From assembly GCF_000018865.1 (NCBI RefSeq), contig NC_010175.1, positions 2,976,001 to 3,040,000 on the forward strand: DNA of 64,000 bases. The letters run 5' to 3'. A model generated the notes under the pieces. The model was not told the DNA's origin. It saw nothing but the letters and a program-made list of their open reading frames with translations, and did not search any database. The stretch comes from Chloroflexus aurantiacus J-10-fl. GTDB taxonomy: Bacteria > Chloroflexota > Chloroflexia > Chloroflexales > Chloroflexaceae. Positions within the stretch are counted from its first letter, which is position 1. Each line of letters begins with the position of its first letter. Both the position numbers and the translations under genes were made by a program. Of this stretch, positions 21,641 through 53,461 are shown piece by piece.

Positions 21641-21675
21641 ACCCCATATACGTCGCTACGGCGACAAAATCCGAA

Positions 21676-21802
21676 GACCTTCGGGGCAAGGTGAAATTCC
21701 TGATCGGCGGTAATGGTGGCGTGCCCACACAAGCCCGCGAGCCGTAAGGCAGGACCCGGTGTGATTCCGGGGCCGACGGTATAGTCCGGATGGGAGAAGG
21801 TC
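21676..21802 (+). ncRNA. FMN riboswitch (RFN element)
   Basis: Conserved blocks follow the known order: ACCTTCGGGGCAAGGTGAAA, ATTCCTGATCGGCGGTAA, AGCCCGCGAGCC, CAGGACCCGGTGTGATTCCG, GGGCCGACGGTATAGTCCGG and ATGGGAGAAGGT. The closing helix P1 is ACCTTC (21677-21682) with GAAGGT (21796-21801). It senses FMN and here precedes ribD and the rest of the riboflavin pathway. Confidence 0.97.
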
Positions 21803-21834
21803 GGCGGTTGGTTTGGCACGATAGCAGATGAAGA

Positions 21835-46894: not shown

Positions 46895-47247
46895 TGAGCC
46901 TGAACGAGATTGTGACCCTGATCCTGGCAACCATCGGGGTGCTGTTCATGCTGCTGGCAGCAATCGGGATGCTGAAATTGCCCGACCTCTATACGCGCGT
47001 TCATGCGACCGGTAAAGCGGGGACGTTGGGTATTACCGGTGTTCTGCTGTCGGTGGCGGCGCATCACGGCGATCTGGTGGCAGCGGCCAAGATGGTTGCC
47101 CTGATCGCCTTTTTCTTCCTGACGGCACCGGTCGCCGCTCATATGCTCGACCGGGCAGCCTACCTGACCGGCGTGAAGCGGGCACCACAGACAGTGCAGG
47201 ACGATCTGGCGGGGAAGTACGATATGGAGCAGGGGCGGTTGCGTTAG
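46894..47247 (+). CDS. mrpG: Mrp antiporter subunit G
   Basis: A 117-residue, three-helix protein with FMLLAAIGMLKLPDLYTRVH, ATGKAGTLGITGVLLSVAA and FFLTAPVAAHMLDRAAYLTG, all typical of MrpG. GAGGAGGGG lies before ATG 46894. It closes the complete A-to-G operon; a terminator follows about 90 bases later. Confidence 0.95.
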   Translation: MSLNEIVTLILATIGVLFMLLAAIGMLKLPDLYTRVHATGKAGTLGITGVLLSVAAHHGDLVAAAKMVALIAFFFLTAPVAAHMLDRAAYLTGVKRAPQTVQDDLAGKYDMEQGRLR

Positions 47248-47333: not shown

Positions 47334-47365
47334 ACGTCACCCAGGATAAGACCGGGTGACGTTTT
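47334..47365 (+). terminator. Intrinsic terminator after the mrp operon
   Basis: ACGTCACCC (47334-47342) pairs with GGGTGACGT (47354-47362) and is followed by TTT. It separates the operon from the tRNA-Sec promoter. Confidence 0.8.
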
Positions 47366-47457: not shown

Positions 47458-47486
47458 TTGACAACCCCCCTGGCTCACTCTACAAT
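47458..47486 (+). promoter_or_regulatory. Near-consensus promoter of tRNA-Sec
   Basis: TTGACA (47458-47463), 17-base spacer, TACAAT (47481-47486). A start site about seven bases downstream falls at 47493-47494, the first base of the tRNA. Confidence 0.85.
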
Positions 47487-47493
47487 CGCTGGT

Positions 47494-47587
47494 GAGAGCG
47501 CATGTGGCCCGGTGGCTGTCGCGGTCTTCAAAACCGTTGGGCGGAGTGACGAACTACGCCGGTGGGTTCGACTCCCACGCGCTCTCG
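47494..47587 (+). tRNA. selC: Selenocysteine tRNA (anticodon TCA)
   Basis: All tRNA-Sec hallmarks can be drawn. There is an 8-bp acceptor, GAGAGCGC with GCGCTCTC, plus a 5-bp T stem (GTGGG/CCCAC), a 13-bp stack. A 6-bp D stem, GTGGCC/GGCTGT, closes a four-base CGGT loop. The anticodon arm GCGGT-CTTCAAA-ACCGT reads UGA codons. A long variable arm contains GGCGGAGT...ACTACGCC. The discriminator is G; CCA is not encoded. It inserts selenocysteine at UGA with SelA, SelB and SelD, none of which are in the window. A consensus-like promoter sits directly upstream. Confidence 0.93.
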
Positions 47588-47827
47588 TGTGATAGACTTC
47601 ACGAGTTTCCTGGCGTTGTGTATCCGCAATCCCATAATGCGCCGGTATCGATGAAACCTCAAACATCCCGGCAGCATTCAACCGATCAGCGATTGCTTAA
47701 CGTTTGCAATCCCATCGCCTGATTGTATTTCAGTAGCGCTTGCTCATCGCCTTCGCCGGTAACCGTATGATAGACAGGGCGGAATTGTGAGCAAGTTGTA
47801 TGGCGTACACGCCTCTCTCCGCATACA

Positions 47828-53371: not shown

Positions 53372-53461
53372 TGGCGGGGAGAGTGAGATTCGAACTCACG
53401 AGGGCTTATTAGGCCCTACCCGTTTTCGAACGGGCACGTTCAACCACTCCGTCATCTCCCC
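53372..53461 (-). tRNA. tRNA-Ser (anticodon CGA)
   Basis: On the minus strand the acceptor GGGGAGA pairs with TCTCCCC, the anticodon arm CCCGTTCGAAAACGGG gives CGA, and the long variable arm TAGGGCCTAATAAGCCCTC is typical of tRNA-Ser. The discriminator is G and CCA is encoded. Confidence 0.95.

Follow-up and report, generated by a model that had tools for sequence, protein, structure and literature searches.

A selenocysteine tRNA gene and its promoter

The DNA considered here, the window, is a stretch of 64,000 nucleotides of the Chloroflexus aurantiacus J-10-fl genome (G000:C1:2976001-3040000; the genome, G000, is a single contig of 5,258,541 bases), and its feature of interest is selC, the gene for the selenocysteine tRNA (tRNA-Sec), together with the promoter placed directly before it. 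In window coordinates the locus comprises the following features.

47458..47463, + strand: -35 hexamer TTGACA, from a pattern scan, with relatives compared
47481..47486, + strand: -10 hexamer TACAAT, from the same kind of scan, at a spacer of 17 from the -35 hexamer
47487..47493, + strand: discriminator region of seven bases, the last a pyrimidine (T in this genome)
47494, + strand: predicted start of transcription, at the first base (G1) of the tRNA, from conserved spacing and the start signature
47494..47587, + strand: tRNA-Sec (selC), called by ARAGORN and Rfam, with an 8+5 stack and no encoded CCA
47528-47530, + strand: anticodon TCA, as called by ARAGORN
47587, + strand: discriminator base G of the tRNA (G73)

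The tRNA matches Rfam RF01852 with 70.7 bits against a gathering score of 47, and the match covers model positions 1-91 of 91. All eight positions of the acceptor stem are paired, with an A-C mismatch next to them, and the T stem has 5 bp; the covariance model further places a 6-bp D stem, which by reading contains three G-U pairs and of which only four pairs survive a free fold, and a long variable arm. The gene therefore combines a score above gathering with the UCA anticodon, 8-bp acceptor stem, 5-bp T stem and G73 that characterize bacterial tRNA-Sec. A first-pass annotation, made from the letters alone, had already described the 8+5 stack, the 6-bp D stem, the long variable arm and the TCA anticodon, and had proposed a search with a Sec covariance model; ARAGORN and the full-length RF01852 match bear that description out. 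Searched genome-wide, RF01852 returns this single strong tRNA-Sec match; the next two, at 48.6 and 47.2 bits, are barely above the cut-off, and ARAGORN identifies them as tRNA-Ser with the anticodons TGA and GCT. The promoter is likewise where it had been placed, with exactly seven bases between TACAAT and G1, and the window contains three copies of the pattern TTGACA-17-TANAAT, for which 0.02 would be expected.

The selenocysteine trait

Genes for selenocysteine synthesis and decoding are found elsewhere in the genome, all above their curated cut-offs: selA (G000:C1:1414093, 586.7 bits), selB (G000:C1:310404, 312.8 bits) and selD (G000:C1:1171907, 367.9 bits). The selD gene has one in-frame TGA, which lies inside CAGUAAK, which we take to be the active-site motif of SelD, and is followed by a hairpin of -20.2 kcal/mol in 55 bases. 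Across the genomes compared, selD scores above the cut-off in 29 of 41 and has an in-frame TGA in all 29, as a single match in 28 of them, including C. aurantiacus, and in one of two fragments in G016. One genome thus holds selA, selB, selD and a UGA-containing gene, the combination expected of selenocysteine decoding, and its gene content indicates that the gene at 47494-47587 is a working selC. The search for these three genes had been suggested along with the prediction of a selenoprotein set, which stands as far as selA, selB and the UGA-containing selD go, the UGA having been checked in selD alone; the absence of the three genes, which the same annotation had named as the mark of a relic, is not what the genome shows. 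As a side observation, a molybdopterin oxidoreductase gene whose frame is open lies close to selA (L117, genome positions 1404000-1418000), and selA is, by reading, immediately before a gene resembling a molybdenum-cofactor nucleotidyltransferase.

Conservation of the promoter distance in the order

We compared 30 tRNA-Sec loci of the order, belonging to four families (f1-f4) and drawn from 32 genomes with a match; the matches of G020, fetched later, and G036, which ARAGORN does not call tRNA-Sec, stand outside this set. A TANNNT motif is located seven bases upstream of the tRNA in 22 of the 30 loci and six bases upstream in another 6, where 0.36 would be expected per position, and a complete -35/-10 pair with a score of at least 9 is present in 23 of the 30, every one at 6 or 7 bases. 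The sequences of spacer and discriminator vary among these loci while the distance is nearly constant, and 29 of the 30 have a pyrimidine at base -1. TANNNT at 6-7 bases is absent from two loci, G004, which has GACAAT at 7 bases, and G022, which has nothing comparable. The G004 genome has a tRNA-Sec match, but selA is unmatched there and neither selB nor selD exceeds the cut-off; the one-base change in the G004 -10 hexamer fits decay following loss of the trait. G020 similarly lacks selA and above-cut-off selB or selD, and the scan finds no promoter before its tRNA-Sec match, the start of which, by reading, ARAGORN has set two bases early.

Ordinary tRNA genes as controls

The controls were the first genes of ordinary tRNA units, scored by the same promoter scan as tRNA-Sec; they come from the C. 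aurantiacus genome, from its relatives G012, G025 and G026 (141 tRNA matches, reduced by coordinates to 105 unit first genes, of which 103 were scored) and from G080 and G132 (families f13 and f46), in both of which tRNA-Sec has a distance of 7 (28 units from the best 30 of 92 matches). Units with no clear promoter (12/37, 31/103 and 7/28, respectively) were left out of the distance counts, and the promoter score used is reached by 1.2% of random 150-mers from the window. Within C. aurantiacus, 25 of 37 units have a promoter, one at 6 bases, one at 7 and the others at least 9 bases upstream, mostly 9-15; among the relatives 72 of 103 do, none of the 72 closer than 9 bases; and for G080 and G132 the count is 21 of 28, none under 8. 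With a relaxed scan, 131 promoters were recognized before 168 ordinary units, 2 of them at 6-7 bases, and a looser count of TANNNT before 140 units peaks at 10-14 bases.

The two exceptions in C. aurantiacus are tRNA-Lys(CTT) (1661487, - strand) and tRNA-Leu(TAG) (3987732, + strand), whose -10 hexamers end 6 and 7 bases away, and which are possibly recent leaderless tRNAs. In the relatives, the units with the same anticodons have distances of 22, 14 and 14 bases for Lys(CTT) and 12, 11 and 14 for Leu(TAG); hence the short distance of these two is not kept, and among the tRNAs compared tRNA-Sec alone keeps it. Short leaders are, as judged by promoter positions, general in these genomes, and the predicted leaderless distance is nearly private to tRNA-Sec.

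A start-site signature past the -10 hexamer

For calibration we used 93 ordinary tRNA promoters at a distance of 10-30 bases, in which the first ten bases past the -10 hexamer are leader sequence. A pyrimidine occupies base 7 in 71% of these and base 9 in 76%, and 63 of the 93 have G at base 8; taken separately, the promoter sets have this G in 12/21, 47/69 and 10/19. The pyrimidine-7/G-8 signature is common to C. aurantiacus, G012, G025, G026, G080 and G132. At tRNA-Sec genes with seven intervening bases, a pyrimidine occupies base 7 and G1 of the tRNA base 8 in 18 of 18 cases, and of those with six, all 5 have G1 at base 7 with a C before it. Since G1 of tRNA-Sec thus occupies the signature position, the start is predicted to be base 1. 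The earlier proposal had put the start at 47493-47494; 47494 is favored by the spacing, by the difference from other tRNAs and by the start signature.

The missing CCA

Behind G73 the C. aurantiacus gene continues with TGT and does not encode CCA, whereas the 48 further tRNA genes identified in this genome all do; what had first been noticed as a difference from most other tRNAs in the window is therefore a difference from every other one found. According to the available part of PMC5330540, 93% of bacterial tRNA-Sec genes encode CCA, making this usual and not strictly defining. Of the 11 loci outside f1, 10 encode CCA behind G73 (G025 lacks it), against 3 of the 19 within f1 (G012, G015 and G022). 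As the CCA-encoding loci share the short promoter distance, G022 excepted, CCA seems to have been lost after the putative leaderless placement arose. Six f1 loci with no encoded CCA (L016, L017, L021, L022, L023 and L028) have a conserved sequence directly behind G73, of which window positions 47587-47609 are a diverged version. The opposite strand of this flank in the six loci resembles, by reading, the 3′ portion of a protein-coding gene that converges on the tRNA. Enzymes of the PolyA_pol family, to which CCA-adding enzymes belong, are encoded in the C. aurantiacus genome.

Distribution beyond the order

In the rest of the phylum, a first count covered 76 loci, 74 of them called tRNA-Sec (73 when L275, with 2 upstream bases, is set aside). 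The relaxed scan covered 92 of 94 loci among the matches listed, L414 (not called) and L275 (too short) being left out, and the following figures refer to these. A clear promoter precedes 31 of the 92 tRNA-Sec genes, which represent 44 families, and 18 of the 31 are at 6-7 bases: all 4 loci of f5, the only one of f6, 8 of 9 in f13 (the relaxed scan finds no clear promoter at the f13 locus L468) and all 5 of f46. These four families have the same distance with different -10 sequences.

A further set of named genomes yielded 80 loci among the matches listed, 76 called tRNA-Sec and 74 remaining once duplicates were removed; nearly all are from other phyla, with L168 labelled Dehalococcoidia and L200 Chloroflexi. 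Here the relaxed scan recognizes a clear promoter in 21 of 74, of which 2 (L175 and L182) are at 6-7 bases, and TANNNT is found 6 times at 7 bases (including L200) and once at 6, against 0.91 expected per position, again among the matches listed. A distance of 6-7 bases as a general rule of bacterial selC is rejected by these counts and by Escherichia coli W, with its 31 bases; as far as genomic comparison goes, the short promoter distance is a trait of the lineage.

A predicted leaderless tRNA in a cell with RNase P

The 5′ ends of bacterial tRNAs are attributed to RNase P of one kind or another. The RNase P RNA is encoded at 243897-244332 of the C. aurantiacus genome, where RF00010 matches over the full model with 94.8 bits (E 2.6e-29), not quite reaching the gathering score of 100; the L15/CCA-binding part could not be aligned. 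The genome is accordingly not of the Nanoarchaeum equitans type, in which tRNAs mature in a genome devoid of RNase P, and a leaderless tRNA-Sec would be a bypass of an enzyme that is there. Base -1 could pair with base 73 in 27 of 30 tRNA-Sec and in 60 of 140 ordinary tRNAs; this pairing was not relied on as an argument against the use of RNase P, being confounded by G73.

We posit that this working selC probably has a promoter that sets transcription to begin at the tRNA's first base, with no 5′ leader made and RNase P bypassed. A promoter of housekeeping type would fix the start, giving a primary tRNA-Sec transcript with no 5′ leader and with a 5′ triphosphate, and RNase P, which the other tRNAs of the cell need, would be passed over for this one. 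The 3′ end would then be trimmed and CCA added by a nucleotidyltransferase, upon which SerRS, SelA and SelB would employ the tRNA for UGA decoding, at least in selD. A possible reason for the bypass is that the 13-bp acceptor-T stack makes an awkward RNase P substrate. The leaderless primary transcript of the first-pass annotation is supported as a comparative prediction, and that no RNase P cut is needed is what we infer from it. For the Chloroflexota families f1-f6, of the same class as C. aurantiacus, and f13 and f46, outside that class, we lean slightly toward the view that tRNA-Sec alone was selected to have a mature, triphosphorylated 5′ end at birth and so escaped RNase P, the gene having later lost its encoded CCA within f1. 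If this holds, bacteria and eukaryotes would share the same solution, a leaderless tRNA-Sec, and the lineage, as a natural experiment, would bear on why certain tRNAs are spared 5′ processing with RNase P still present.

Parallels to parts of this arrangement are known. In its available part, PMC11143913 notes tRNA-Sec, with its 8-bp acceptor stem, as an RNase P exception, and the accessible portion of PMC6627462 describes the precursor of human tRNA[Ser]Sec as 5′ leaderless. The human tRNA is likewise leaderless in a cell possessing RNase P, the leaderless state in Chloroflexus being a prediction from sequence; the eukaryotic gene, however, is transcribed by RNA polymerase III from upstream TATA, PSE and DSE elements and its product has a 9+4 fold, whereas the Chloroflexus gene has a bacterial two-hexamer promoter and an 8+5 fold. 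In N. equitans, as the available part of PMC10100707 has it, RNase P is absent and all tRNAs are leaderless, their 5′ ends being set by promoter placement, with a 5′ triphosphate expected. The likeness lies in the promoter placement; the differences are that RNase P RNA is present here and that the placement is kept across relatives by tRNA-Sec and by none of the other tRNAs compared. E. coli selC belongs to the same family and has a promoter-like sequence of its own, but in E. coli W the TATAAT ends 31 bases upstream, so that a leader and its cleavage by RNase P are expected, and CCA is encoded. We found no report of a leaderless bacterial tRNA-Sec in the open-licence literature searched, which is weak evidence as most subscription journals lie outside it, nor is one reported in the available parts of PMC3848588, PMC10941002 and PMC7609411; a mapped 5′ end of the Chloroflexus tRNA-Sec was likewise not found in the open-licence literature.

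Several points weigh against a start on base 1 and a selected bypass. The start is a prediction from sequence, and the loci within one order are not independent; the Fisher values of 1e-22 by locus and 1e-7 by family assume independence, and the genomes are related. G022 is a true exception, having selA, selB and selD yet no promoter at 6-7 bases, and conversely G001 (99% complete) and G002 (82%) keep the promoter with no above-cut-off selD. Elsewhere in the phylum, 61 of the 92 tRNA-Sec genes of the relaxed scan have no recognized promoter and 13 of the 31 promoters are 8-54 bases off, one of them in f8 (18 bases), of the same class, all among the matches listed. TANNNT is also found at 6 bases in 1 and at 7 bases in 4 of 140 ordinary units, with 1.49 expected per position, or 5 units in all where chance would give 3. 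Furthermore, an Mrp-type Na+/H+ antiporter operon ends upstream of tRNA-Sec at 47247, and read-through from it may give a leader-bearing precursor.

The best-surviving alternative, which we regard as unlikely, is a start at the purine at -2 (47492), with a two-base leader cut by RNase P, the gene then lying at the short end of a short-leader genome. The purine at -2 in 22 of the 30 order loci would permit such a leader, and the ordinary tRNA promoters of C. aurantiacus are also close; yet the signature of ordinary promoters is at base 8 past the -10 hexamer and not base 6, a pyrimidine is at -1 in nearly all order loci, and six loci have just 6 bases, making base 1 the seventh position. Far less probable is that the promoter came to its place by neutral chance and was passed on within the lineage, with no selection for a leaderless transcript. 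Related sequences do share spacing by descent, and two ordinary tRNA genes of the same genome are at 6 and 7 bases, but the distance stays at 6-7 while spacer and discriminator change, recurs in f5, f6, f13 and f46 with other -10 sequences, and is not conserved in relatives for Lys(CTT) and Leu(TAG). That the gene is a relic in a genome no longer making selenoproteins is scarcely credible: nothing was found to support it beyond the unencoded CCA, which PolyA_pol-family enzymes could add, and selA, selB and the UGA-containing selD, with its in-frame TGA in CAGUAAK and at the scores given above, contradict it.

Neighboring genes and other RNA features

Subunits D, E, F and G of the antiporter were matched, most with scores under the curated cut-offs. 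Between this operon and the promoter lies one further feature, possibly a weak terminator of the operon; a pattern scan admitting loops of at most 8 bases and requiring at least 5 T did not report it.

47334..47362, + strand: 9-bp inverted repeat or hairpin and then a short T stretch, TTTGTCAATT, from a free fold

A tRNA at window positions 53372-53461 (- strand) has an 8-base anticodon loop, TTCGAAAA, for which ARAGORN gives 'cgaa', an anticodon of four bases assigned to Ser or Phe. The list of 49 tRNAs of this genome contains no further Ser(CGA) gene, and one unit of the relative G012 (L365) receives an ordinary Ser(CGA) call. Two further structured RNAs were recognized in the window.

21673-21805, + strand: FMN riboswitch, 113.6 bits
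13811-13909, - strand: small SRP RNA, 66.1 bits
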